DNA from: Cyanobacteria bacterium M_DeepCast_200m_mx_001
Lineage (GTDB): Bacteria; Cyanobacteriota; Cyanobacteriia; PCC-6307; Cyanobiaceae
DNA: 37,288 bases
Direction: 5' to 3'
Assembly (NCBI GenBank): GCA_016882415.1
Contig: VGQL01000008.1
Location: 1-37,288 of the forward strand
The translations under genes were made by a program, and so were the position numbers. This document shows positions 376 through 21,520 of this stretch, piece after piece; the stretch's first letter is position 1; every line of letters starts with the position of its first letter. A model generated the notes under the pieces. That model had not been told where the DNA came from. It was given only the letters and a program-made list of their open reading frames with translations, and made no database searches.

Positions 376-1032
376 TCAGGCGGCCTGCATGGCCGCCACC
401 TCGGCGGCGAAGTCCATCTTCTCCACTTCGATGCCCTCACCGAGGTTGAAACGCACGAAGCGGCGCACCTGGATGTTCTCGCCCACCTTGCCGGCCACCT
501 GCTTCACCATCTCCTCAACGGTCATGGCGCTGTCCTTGATGAAGGCCTGGTCCATCAGGGCCATCTCCTTGAGGCGCTTGCCGATGCGGCCGGCCACGAT
601 CTTCTCCTTCATCTCCTCCTTCTTGCCGGCGAGGTCGTCGCGGCCCATTTCAATCTGCTTCTCGCGCTCGGCCACCTCGGCGGGGATGTCCTCCACCTTC
701 ACGAAGTCGACGTTGGGGCAGGCGGCGATCTGCATCGCCACGTTGCGGATCAGCTCCTGGAAGATCTCACCGCGGGCCACGAAGTCGGTTTCGCAGTTCA
801 CCTCCACCAGCACGCCCACGCGGGCACCGGTGTGGATGTAGCTGCCGATGGCACCCTCAGCGGCGGTGCGGCCGGACTTCTTCTCGGCGGAGGCGATGCC
901 CTTCTGACGCAGCCACTCCACGGCCTTGTCCTTGTCGCCCTTGGTTTCAGCAAGGGCCTTCTTGCAATCCATCATCCCTGCGCCGGTCATGTCGCGCAGT
1001 TCTTTGACGAGCTTGGCGGAGATCTCAGCCAT
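376..1032 (-). CDS. tsf: translation elongation factor Ts
   Basis: [29 protein letters not shown]... is the canonical EF-Ts N-terminus, with the C-terminal [11 protein letters not shown] motif. Confidence 0.98.
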
Positions 1033-1101
1033 GGGGATTCAGCGGGTGGGTGGGGGTGCTGTGGGGGAAAAGCAATCGGGTGGCAGGGGCCCATAGGGGA
1101 A

Positions 1102-1123
1102 GAGCTCCCCCTCAGGGAAGCTC
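1102..1123 (-). other. hairpin in the rpsB-tsf spacer (possible attenuator or processing site)
   Basis: Minus-strand RNA GAGCUUCCC-UGAG-GGGGAGCUC: about 9 bp stem with one G-U pair and a 3-4 nt loop, followed by UUCCCC. Confidence 0.35.
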
Positions 1124-1162
1124 CAGGGCGTCTGCGGGGGTGGGCCGCCGGGCCCGGGGGGC

Positions 1163-1885
1163 TCAGCCCTCCTCGTCGTCGTAGCCGCCGCGCTGGTCAC
1201 CGGCGCCGTGGCGACCTTCATTGATGGCGTCCGCCAGACGGCCGAGCACCAGCTGCACCGAGCGCACGGCGTCGTCGTTGCAGGGGATGGGCACGTCGCA
1301 GAGGTCGGGATCGCAGTTGGTGTCGAGCATGGACACCAGGGGGATATCGAGCTTGCGGGCTTCGAGCACCGCGTTAGTTTCACGGCGCTGATCCACCAGC
1401 ACCACCACATCGGGCAGACGGCGCATGTTCTTGAGGCCGCCCAGATACTTCTGCAGGCGCTCCAGCTCCCGGCGCAGCACGGCCGCTTCCTTCTTGGGAC
1501 GCATGGCGATGGCGCCGGAGGCCTCCATGCGCTCCAGGTCCTTGAGGCGGTCGATGCGGGCGCGCATCGTGGTCCAGTTGGTGAGCATGCCGCCCAGCCA
1601 GCGCTGGTTCACATAGGCGGCGCCGCAGCGGGTGGCCTCCAGGGCGATCACTTCAGAGGCCTGCTTCTTGGTGCCCACAAACAGGAAACGCTTGCCGCTG
1701 CGGGCGGCGCTGCGCACCCACTTGTAGGCGTTGTTCATGCAGACGGCGGTCTGCACGAGATCAATGATGTGGACTCCGTTGCGCGCGCAATAGATGTAGC
1801 GCGACATCTTGGGATTCCAGCGGCGGGTTTGGTGCCCGAAGTGGGCACCCGCCTCCATCATTTCGGCGAGGGTGACAACAGCCAT
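1163..1885 (-). CDS. rpsB: 30S ribosomal protein S2
   Basis: [46 protein letters not shown]... is a clear S2 signature; the tsf neighbour is conserved. Confidence 0.98.
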
Positions 1886-18501: not shown

Positions 18502-18543
18502 GTTACCTCTGATACACAAGCCGGCGCCGCAGCTCCGTACGGT
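18502..18543 (+). promoter_or_regulatory. NtcA-type class II activated promoter of glnA
   Basis: GTT-ACCTCTGA-TAC (18502-18515), 22-nt spacer, then TACGGT (TAnnnT, 18538-18543); ATG of glnA at 18606. Confidence 0.75.
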
Positions 18544-18605: not shown

Positions 18606-20024
18606 ATGTCCAAGACCGCCCAGGACGTCCTCCGTCAGATCAAGGACGAGGGCATCGAACTGATTGACCTCAAGTTCGTCGATCTCCACGGCAAGTGGCA
18701 GCACCTCACCGTGTGTGAGGACCTGATCGATGAGGCCGCCTTCACCGAAGGCGTGGCCTTCGACGGCTCCTCGATCCGTGGCTGGAAGGCCATCAACGAG
18801 TCGGACATGGCGATGGTGCCCGACCCCAACACCGCCTGGATCGACCCCTTCTACAGCCACAAGACCCTCAGCCTGATCTGCTCGATCCAGGAGCCCCGCA
18901 GCGGCAAGCCCTACGCCCGCTGCCCCCGGGCCCTGGCCCAGAAGGCCCTCGACTACCTGGGCTCCACCGGCCTGGCCGACACCGCCTACTTCGGCCCCGA
19001 GCCCGAGTTCTTCATCTTCGACGACGTTCGCTACAAGAGCACCAACGGCTCCAGCTTCTACGCCGTTGATTCGATCGAAGCCCCCTGGAACACCGACCGG
19101 GTGGAGGAGGGCGGCAACCTCGCCAACAAGATCCAGCTGAAGGAGGGTTACTTTCCGGTGTCGCCCAACGACACCCTGCAGGACATCCGCAGCGAAATGC
19201 TGCTGACCATGGGTGGCCTGGGGGTGCCGATCGAAAAGCAGCACCACGAGGTGGCCACCGCCCAGCACGAACTCGGCATCAAGTTCGCCGAGCTGATCAG
19301 CGCGGCCGACAACGTGATGATCTACAAGTACGTGGTGCGCAACATTGCCAAGAAGTACGGCAAAACCGCCACGTTCATGCCCAAGCCGATCTTTGGCGAC
19401 AACGGCAGCGGCATGCACGTGCACCAGAGCCTCTGGAAAGCCGGCCAGCCCCTGTTCTGGGGTGAGGGCACCTACGCCAATCTCTCCCAGACCGCCCGCT
19501 GGTACATCGGTGGCCTGCTGAAGCACGCCCCCAGCTTCCTGGCCTTCACCAACCCCACCACCAACAGCTACAAGCGTCTGGTGCCGGGCTTCGAAGCGCC
19601 GGTGAACCTGGTGTACTCCCAGGGCAACCGCTCCGCCGCCGTGCGCATCCCGCTCACCGGCATGAACCCCAAGGCCAAGCGCCTGGAGTTCCGCTCCGGC
19701 GACGCCCTCTCCAACCCCTACCTGGGCTTCGCGGCGATGCTGATGGCCGGCATCGACGGGATCAAGAACCAGATCGATCCGGGCGACGGCACCGACGTCG
19801 ACCTGTTCGAACTGTCGGCTGAGGAGCTGGCCAAGATCTCCACCGTGCCCGCCTCCCTGAACGGCGCCCTGGAGGCCCTCAAGGCCGACCACGAATACCT
19901 GCTGGCCGGGGGTGTGTTCACCGAGGACTTCATCGACAACTGGATCGCCCTCAAGTACGAGGAGGTGCAGCAGCTGCGCCAGCGGCCCCACCCCCACGAG
20001 TACACGATGTACTACGACGCCTGA
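18606..20024 (+). CDS. glnA: glutamine synthetase type I
   Basis: [36 protein letters not shown]...FDGSSIRGW...[12 protein letters not shown]...NRSAAVRIP. Confidence 0.98.
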
Positions 20025-20041: not shown

Positions 20042-20067
20042 AGCCCCGGCTCCGGCCGGGGCTTTGT
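20042..20067 (+). terminator. glnA intrinsic terminator
   Basis: AGCCCCGGC-tccg-GCCGGGGCT followed by TTGTTGT, just after the glnA stop. Confidence 0.7.
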
Positions 20068-20078
20068 TGTGGGCCGGC

Positions 20079-20303
20079 TCAGCCGTGGCGCAACTGGGCC
20101 AGGGCGCTGGCGTGGAGGCGCCGCTCGTGGGCGTGGCGCTCAGCCCAGGCCTGCTCCTGGGCATGCACGTCGGCGGCCTCGCTGCCGTCGCCGGTGCGCT
20201 GGCGCTGGGCGATCACCGGCTGGTGGGCGTGCTCGCGGCGCTGGCGGGCCCGCGCCCAATCCACATAGGAGCGGGTGTCGGAGGGGAGGGGTTGTGTGCT
20301 CAT
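20079..20303 (-). CDS. 74-aa Arg/His/Gln-rich hypothetical protein convergent with glnA
   Basis: MSTQPLPSDTRSYVDWARARQRREHAHQPVIAQRQRTGDGSEAADVHAQEQAWAERHAHERRLHASALAQLRHG; strong GC3 bias in this frame; NtcA box upstream. Confidence 0.6.
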   Translation of the reverse strand: MSTQPLPSDTRSYVDWARARQRREHAHQPVIAQRQRTGDGSEAADVHAQEQAWAERHAHERRLHASALAQLRHG

Positions 20304-20344
20304 GGGGGTGACGGCCTGCCGGCCGGACTTGCTGGGTCCATTCT

Positions 20345-20358
20345 GTAGCTGTTGCTAC
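20345..20358. promoter_or_regulatory. perfect NtcA-type box GTA-N8-TAC
   Basis: GTAGCTGTTGCTAC, palindromic, in the divergent spacer between the 74-aa ORF and the methyltransferase. Confidence 0.6.
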
Positions 20359-20464
20359 TAAATCAACCGCCGCGCCATCAATCTTGATCTCTGGCCACCG
20401 GGGCCCGCGGAGCGGCTGCCGGATCCGTTGGAATGGGGCCAACTCGCCGGAGCGGCGCCAGTCC

Positions 20465-21520
20465 ATGGCCGACACCCTCACCAAGCTCGCGTACCAAGCC
20501 CTGCAGCAGGGCAAGAGCCTGATGGGGGTGGCCCACAAGGAAGTGAGCACCAAGCTGATGGAACTGGTGGCTCCGGAGGGTGCCCCCAAGACACGGCCCA
20601 TCCCCCCCCAGATGCTGAAGGATCTGCAGGCGGCCCACGGCGCCCTGCTGGACCTCGACTGGCAGGAGGCCCAGCAGGGGCTGTACCCCACCAGCCTGCT
20701 GTTCGACGCCCCCTGGCTCGACTGGGCCACCCGCTACCCGCTGGTGTGGCTGGACATGCCCAGCACCTGGGCCCGCCGCAGCGAGCGCAATGTGCATGAC
20801 CTGCCGGAGGAGGTGAACCGGGAGAACTACCCCGACTACTACCTGCAGAACTTCCACCACCAGACCGACGGCTACCTGAGCGACCACTCCGCCTCGCTCT
20901 ACGACCTGCAGGTGGAGATCCTGTTCAACGGCACCACCGACCCCATGCGGCGCCGGGTGATCCGCCCGCTGGTGGAGGGGCTGCGCGCCTTCCGTGAGCG
21001 CCCCGCCAGCCAGCTGCGCGTGCTCGACATCGCCACCGGCACCGGTCGCATGCTGCGGCAGCTGCGGGCCGCCCTGCCGGAAGCCCAGCTGGTGGGGCTC
21101 GACCTCTCCGCCGCCTACCTGCGCCAGGCCAACCGCTGGCTCAGCCAGCTGCCCAGCGAGCTGCCGCAGCTGGTGCAGGGCAATGCCGAAGCGATGCCCT
21201 TCGCCGCGGGCAGCATGCAGGCGGTGACCTGCGTCTTCCTGCTGCATGAGTTGCCCGGTGAGGCGCGCCAGGCGGTGCTCGACGACTGCTTCCGCGTGTT
21301 GGAGCCCGGCGGCACCCTGGTGCTGGCCGACTCGGTGCAGCTGGCGGATTCACCCCAGTTCGAAGCGGCCATGGACAACTTCCGCCGCGTCTTCCACGAG
21401 CCCTACTACCGCGACTACATCGCCGACGACATCGACCAGCGCCTGCAGGCGGCCGGCTTCAGCGGCATCCGCGCCAGCTCCCACCTGATGACCCGCGTCT
21501 GGAGTGCCACCAAGCGCTGA
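20465..21520 (+). CDS. SAM-dependent class I methyltransferase
   Basis: LRVLDIATGTGRMLRQLRAALPEAQLVGLDLSAAYLRQA...VLEPGGTLVLADSVQ. N-terminus MADTLTKLAYQALQQGKSL. Confidence 0.9.
   Translation: MADTLTKLAYQALQQGKSLMGVAHKEVSTKLMELVAPEGAPKTRPIPPQMLKDLQAAHGALLDLDWQEAQQGLYPTSLLFDAPWLDWATRYPLVWLDMPSTWARRSERNVHDLPEEVNRENYPDYYLQNFHHQTDGYLSDHSASLYDLQVEILFNGTTDPMRRRVIRPLVEGLRAFRERPASQLRVLDIATGTGRMLRQLRAALPEAQLVGLDLSAAYLRQANRWLSQLPSELPQLVQGNAEAMPFAAGSMQAVTCVFLLHELPGEARQAVLDDCFRVLEPGGTLVLADSVQLADSPQFEAAMDNFRRVFHEPYYRDYIADDIDQRLQAAGFSGIRASSHLMTRVWSATKR

Follow-up and report, generated by a model that had tools for sequence, protein, structure and literature searches.

Gene Organization around glnA

In the window (the whole stretch of DNA analysed, 37,288 bases), glnA encodes a type I glutamine synthetase (GS; TIGR00653, E=2.4e-197) on the plus strand (18606–20024) and is convergent with a small-protein gene on the minus strand (20079–20303, stop codon included). 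The small gene specifies 74 amino acids with 11 Arg, 7 His and 0 Lys, and the position, length and composition given by an earlier, sequence-only reading of this DNA are confirmed. Divergent from it lies a gene for a class I SAM methyltransferase (20465–21520, plus strand; Pfam Methyltransf_25/11). A putative NtcA box, GTAGCTGTTGCTAC, is found between the two divergent genes (20345–20358, assigned to neither strand; minus-strand reading GTAGCAACAGCTAC). It is an exact, nearly palindromic GTA-N8-TAC sequence with the extended palindrome GTAGC-N4-GCTAC, and lies 41 nt from the start codon of the small gene, as had been reported. No other GTA-N8-TAC occurs in the window, for which shuffled sequences predict 0.12 occurrences, and the longer GTAGCN4GCTACAGA is present once in the window's genome, at the small-protein gene. 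The gap between glnA and the small gene contains a GC-rich inverted repeat followed by TTTGTT (20042–20066), which appears terminator-like when read by eye.

A Small-Protein Family of the Cyanobiaceae

Within the genus of the window (g1; 25 genomes compared, the window's own included), tblastn matched the small gene in 24 genomes, with an intact frame in 23, and gave no match in one. With the family profile A1, 102 of 400 Cyanobiaceae genomes and 14 of 59 genera proved to carry it, and the named carriers include Cyanobium, Vulcanococcus and the marine Synechococcus WH7803. Outside the Cyanobiaceae, a wider profile (A2) found zero matches in a 145-genome sample of the class. Pairwise dN/dS values within the genus range from 0.03 to 0.42 and are mostly about 0.1, and third codon positions hold 379 of the 581 codon differences. 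A single homologue is a pseudogene (genome G010, locus L014; two internal stops).

Several long frames on both strands overlap the ORF, as might be expected of a spurious frame on high-GC DNA. The chance of this being the case is negligible, because the signature of coding selection excludes it, and because the ORF is conserved across 14 genera and Shine-Dalgarno-like sequences precede the start codons in many relatives. Given the low dN/dS, the third-position excess and this conservation, the ORF is almost certainly a genuine gene under purifying selection. Searches of Pfam, NCBIfam and PDB sequences with the protein returned chance-level matches only (e.g., DUF7848, E=0.022), and the gene represents a previously undescribed small-protein family of freshwater and coastal picocyanobacteria. 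The suggestion of a lineage-specific small-protein gene is thus supported, the family being conserved, under selection and, among the genomes sampled, present in Cyanobiaceae only. It had been offered on the understanding that it would fall if relatives lacked the ORF or the box; both are conserved, and the suggestion stands.

Members of the family have median values of 82 amino acids, 12% Arg, 9% His and 1% Lys, with a pI of 9.2. The net charge is weakly positive (median +1.4 at pH 7.5), and a purely electrostatic, IF7-like grip on a target is therefore not obvious. Columns with more than 90% conservation include W16, Q49, A54, R56, L63, S66, A67 and R72. The proteins are built from tandem repeats of the WAxxHxxxxRxHxxxxxAQ type, two in number or occasionally three, as seen when the N-terminal half of the L054 protein (AWAAEHQREQRLHEAELAQI) is set against its C-terminal half (AWARRQEHEKRLHDSAIAQM); the resemblance between repeats has a median z of 3.6 (range −1.5 to 11.7, 63 members). 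Three repeats, with a unit of about 40 amino acids, occur in G115:C1:149536-149856 (L083) and G162:C47:4812-5147 (L079), both of which are without an NtcA box. An AlphaFold2 model of modest quality (pLDDT 73, pTM 0.35) contains helices only, and a Foldseek search with this model revealed no fold match in the PDB.

Assignment of the NtcA Box

The window's genome encodes NtcA, as do 12 of 12 other genomes tested. As in NtcA-repressed genes, a conserved GTA-N8-TAC is found at a fixed place: 52 of the 63 intact homologues have an exact upstream box, and the distance from box to start codon is about 42–67 nt in nearly all homologues (extremes 25 and 85 nt). One intact locus (L088) has a box with one mismatch, and ten are without a box (L021, L024, L054, L055, L058, L060, L068, L079, L083 and L086).

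In the window the box is located between two genes and could act either way, and a few of 47 nonredundant relatives contain TAnnnT 18–21 nt downstream in the methyltransferase direction. It is nevertheless very unlikely that the box drives the methyltransferase, with the small gene as an incidental passenger. Box and small gene persist without a methyltransferase ortholog in G297, G143 and G164 (loci L059, L061 and L063), and in L061 and L063 a long open frame upstream runs co-directional with the small gene, leaving the box without a divergent gene to serve. Conversely, the box is lost with the small gene even where the methyltransferase stays: it is present in one of 20 methyltransferase loci that lack the small gene (Fisher p=4e-10, a value that overstates the number of independent events because the loci are related by descent). 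Within the genus, G009 (L124) is missing both small gene and box, and its methyltransferase directly follows glnA. Upstream of the pseudogene in G010 (L014), the box is substituted in a half-site that is otherwise invariant in g1 (GTAGCAACCGCCAC). The near-constant spacing between box and start codon of the small gene also argues against control of the methyltransferase, which has a conserved promoter-like motif of its own, YTGRAATR (TTGGAATG, 20428–20435, plus strand). All 57 loci with the small gene have this motif 28–43 nt before the methyltransferase start; of the 20 loci lacking the small gene, 10 have it within 70 nt of that start. The remark that no good TAnnnT is found in the methyltransferase direction is borne out by the window and by at least 42 of the 47 nonredundant relatives. 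An NtcA-activated methyltransferase promoter was rejected on account of the loss of the box with the small gene, the mostly absent TAnnnT and the separate YTGRAATR motif. Because the box is kept without the methyltransferase, gone with the small gene and mutated above the pseudogene, it is judged to belong to the small gene. The earlier proposal of an NtcA-type operator for this gene agrees with the finding that the box tracks the small gene and not the methyltransferase.

Promoter Architecture and Predicted Repression

Box-anchored alignment of the 47 nonredundant loci shows GTAGCAACCGCTAC followed by AGAAT, which is nearly as conserved (1.2–2.0 bits per column). In the window, this element is part of a putative −10 hexamer, CAGAAT (20340–20345, minus strand), the first base of which is shared with the NtcA box. 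Mild conservation of a CA is seen 11–12 nt past the box (alignment column 25 is A in 32 of 47 loci), and the A of this CA, 7 nt past the −10 hexamer, is the predicted transcription start (20333, minus strand). In the simplest reading, a start at about 20333 would put the centre of the box near −18.5. The previously noted minus-strand pair TTGATT/CAGAAT, with 15-nt spacing, holds up in part: it is present in the window and its AGAAT is conserved, but −35-like hexamers in this direction are not enriched over shuffles among the relatives, and the TTGATT is thus specific to the window.

TAnnnT is found 16–30 nt downstream of the box, in the direction of the small gene, in none of the 47 loci, which excludes canonical class II activation of this gene. 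A box that lies over the −10 hexamer and spacer and lacks an activator-type TAnnnT corresponds to the predicted geometry of an NtcA repressor site. The NtcA boxes of gifA and gifB cover the core promoter, at −30.5/−7.5, and mediate repression (PMC6316151), and in the case of nirP1 a repressor NtcA box overlies the start site (PMC10907346). The sequence-only reading had described a repression-fitting arrangement of the gifA/gifB kind, and the conserved AGAAT abutting the box, together with the lack of a downstream TAnnnT, supports this view. Judged by this geometry, the small gene is very likely controlled and repressed by NtcA. Since a conserved NtcA site overlies its promoter, production of the protein is probably confined to nitrogen-replete conditions.

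A second conserved block, AAG....TG.AG, is located 15–27 nt upstream of the box (about 20373–20385 in the window) and is common to freshwater and marine loci. The block may serve the small gene as an activator site, or it may belong to the control region of the methyltransferase.

Relationship to Glutamine Synthetase

Upstream of glnA, a putative NtcA site with one mismatch (GTTACCTCTGATAC, 18502–18515, plus strand) is followed at 22 nt by TACGGT (18538–18543), and upstream of glnA in the relatives scanned the spacing between site and TAnnnT is 22–23 nt in all but one. This corresponds to a predicted activator geometry, opposite in sense to the box of the small gene. Across many genera the small gene has remained close to glnA although the other flank, with the methyltransferase, has been rearranged, and the two genes are unlinked in several genomes (G108, G117, G140, G150 and G179).

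At the threshold used, canonical glnA is missing in 23 of 194 complete Cyanobiaceae genomes. The small gene was found in none of the 19 genomes without canonical glnA that were tested (from genus g6: G029, G135, G157, G175, G190, G215, G236, G245, G253, G261, G269, G288, G312 and G317; in addition, G185, G242, G083, G122 and G097), and, in the two genera with the most genomes sampled (g6 and g68), in 12 of 19 genomes that have glnA (Fisher p=6e-5 within these two genera, uncorrected for phylogeny and likewise overstating the number of independent events). Because the small gene and glnA are usually neighbours, their common absence could reflect joint deletion, and both proximity and linked loss can arise without physical interaction of the products. 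Prochlorococcus-type genomes and the genus g5 contain glnA and lack the small gene; GS can thus do without it in many genomes. The pattern would fit a regulatory accessory discarded by lineages whose nitrogen supply is low and steady.

Complete Cyanobiaceae genomes without canonical GlnA look like cases of repeated glutamine synthetase replacement; G029 contains a GSI-like protein with 48% identity in its place. In the Prochlorococcus-type locus L126, the gap between glnA and the methyltransferase is occupied by a different small gene (964–1266, plus strand, 100 amino acids), encoded on the glnA strand, with a C-terminus like EPNYNWKEIKNVLLEIPKKHCK and a GTAGCAGTCAATAC box after the gene. Similar frames are found upstream of the methyltransferase in L132–L137 and L140.

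In the laboratory strain WH7803, the small gene lies beside glnA at about 1,245,120–1,245,450 of CT971583.1, and GS activity is lower with ammonium than with nitrate or under nitrogen-free conditions (PMC4923085). A nitrogen-starvation transcriptome of this strain exists (PMC9430850), and the text of that paper contains no value assignable to the small gene.

Comparison with Known Small Regulators

IF7 and IF17 are likewise small, basic and Arg-rich, and they share with the family described here a presumed role in nitrogen sufficiency. Their genes, gifA and gifB, are repressed via an NtcA box over the core promoter, opposite to glnA (PMC6316151), and at the sequence level the small gene likewise has an NtcA site over its core promoter, inverse to that of glnA. 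The proteins differ: the IF7 motif QARxLMxRHHxxIKxRQQSMLxR is absent from the new family, which has a two-repeat architecture, a gene beside glnA and a box centre placed near −18.5. IF7/IF17 are distributed over Synechocystis and most other cyanobacteria and were not found in Cyanobiaceae. Among 109 genera of the class, tblastn searches found IF7 relatives in 73 and, among the matches listed, in none of the Cyanobiaceae; the query can be taken as IF7 because it found relatives with 83% identity. Homology to IF7/IF17, which the sequence-only reading had wished to see compared by profile, was rejected (hhalign of A2 against A3: probability 0.1%, E=0.39, 16 columns). RQQ...S stretches in single sequences resemble IF7 by eye; the core of IF7 comprises three essential Arg residues in the QAR...NRQQSMLSR region. 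No solved IF7 structure was found in the PDB.

NirP1 resembles the new family in its size of 76–86 amino acids, its repressor NtcA box over the start site and a further conserved upstream element (PMC10907346). It is distinguished by its C-terminal 50 amino acids, which contain a single invariant Cys and three Trp (PMC10907346), whereas the new family contains no conserved Cys and, in most members, two Trp. As these defining features are missing, membership in NirP1 was rejected. In contrast to the new family, NirP1 is reported to be absent from most marine picoplanktonic Synechococcus.

The DUF4278 proteins encoded behind glutamine-II riboswitches (PMM1846 type) were proposed as IF-like candidates of picocyanobacteria; they too are small and Arg-rich, occur in the same organisms and were suggested to be produced under nitrogen excess (PMC6316151). 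They differ in being encoded by separate genes, which are found alike in genomes with and without the small gene, and in the window's genome the DUF4278 gene is located on another contig. An Rfam scan of the window revealed no match, RF01704 included, and the DUF4278 domain had no match in the new family. The DUF4278/glutamine-II riboswitch peptides are a separate system, and the small gene resembles the gif/nirP1 class in gene control while belonging to neither protein family.

Proposed Function and Alternatives

Under nitrogen shortage, NtcA loaded with 2-oxoglutarate would activate glnA from a box at activator distance and would simultaneously cover the −10 hexamer and spacer of the small gene, thereby silencing it. 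With ample nitrogen, NtcA would leave and the Arg/His-rich, helical repeat protein would be produced, which could then bind and damp a target in nitrogen assimilation, most likely GS. The 2-oxoglutarate/NtcA logic of this scheme is taken from known NtcA biology, and GS is a target that we infer. The scheme as a whole, an NtcA-repressed small effector of Cyanobiaceae that acts under nitrogen sufficiency with GS as likeliest target, is given a probability of roughly 0.45. That the protein is an effector of nitrogen metabolism is likely; that GS itself is the target falls somewhat short of an even chance. Indirect support for GS comes from the proximity to glnA, the opposite NtcA geometry, the absence of IF7/IF17 and the absence of the small gene where glnA is missing.

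NirP1 and PirA are effectors of nitrite reductase and PII, respectively, in other cyanobacteria. By analogy, the small protein could act on another nitrogen or carbon target, such as PII, PipX, a transporter, nitrate/nitrite reduction or arginine synthesis, and its position beside glnA would be historical. This possibility, which deserves to be taken seriously without being probable, draws on the absence of any sequence link to known GS inhibitors, on the retention of the small gene, in many cases together with its box, in genomes where glnA lies at a distance, and on nirP1, which follows the same logic (76–86 amino acids, NtcA box over the start site) and targets nitrite reductase (PMC10907346). 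Arguing for GS instead are the proximity to glnA, which many genera have preserved through rearrangements on the side of the methyltransferase, and the absence of the small gene from 19 of 19 tested genomes without canonical glnA.

Arg and His are nitrogen-costly residues. With median contents of 12% and 9%, respectively, and little Lys, the protein could be an NtcA-controlled non-inhibitor, e.g., a housekeeping protein or nitrogen-rich reserve that starving cells would cease to make in order to conserve nitrogen; repression under nitrogen stress would be economical, and the small gene is missing in lineages with small genomes, which are presumably oligotrophic. The nitrogen saved on so small a protein is slight, however, and the strong purifying selection on W16, Q49, R56, L63, S66 and R72 points to a specific interaction, which makes a reserve or housekeeping role unlikely.

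If the protein does act on GS, it would correspond in function, but not in ancestry, to IF7/IF17, which Cyanobiaceae lack. Picocyanobacteria without IF7/IF17 would then have evolved an unrelated tandem-repeat GS inhibitor, encoded beside its target and wired oppositely to NtcA, a scenario that is put forward tentatively.

Significance for Picocyanobacterial Nitrogen Control

Post-translational switching of GS in picocyanobacteria has been described as unclear because IF7/IF17 are missing (PMC6316151, section 2.7). With its conserved operator, the small gene is a specific candidate for this control, and its product may supply the missing brake on nitrogen assimilation in freshwater and coastal picocyanobacteria. 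If GS is the target, NtcA alone would turn on the enzyme while turning off its brake. Even with a target other than GS, an undescribed family would be added to the few NtcA-repressed effector proteins, and the locus would serve as a clear case of a single regulator exerting opposite effects on two neighbouring genes.
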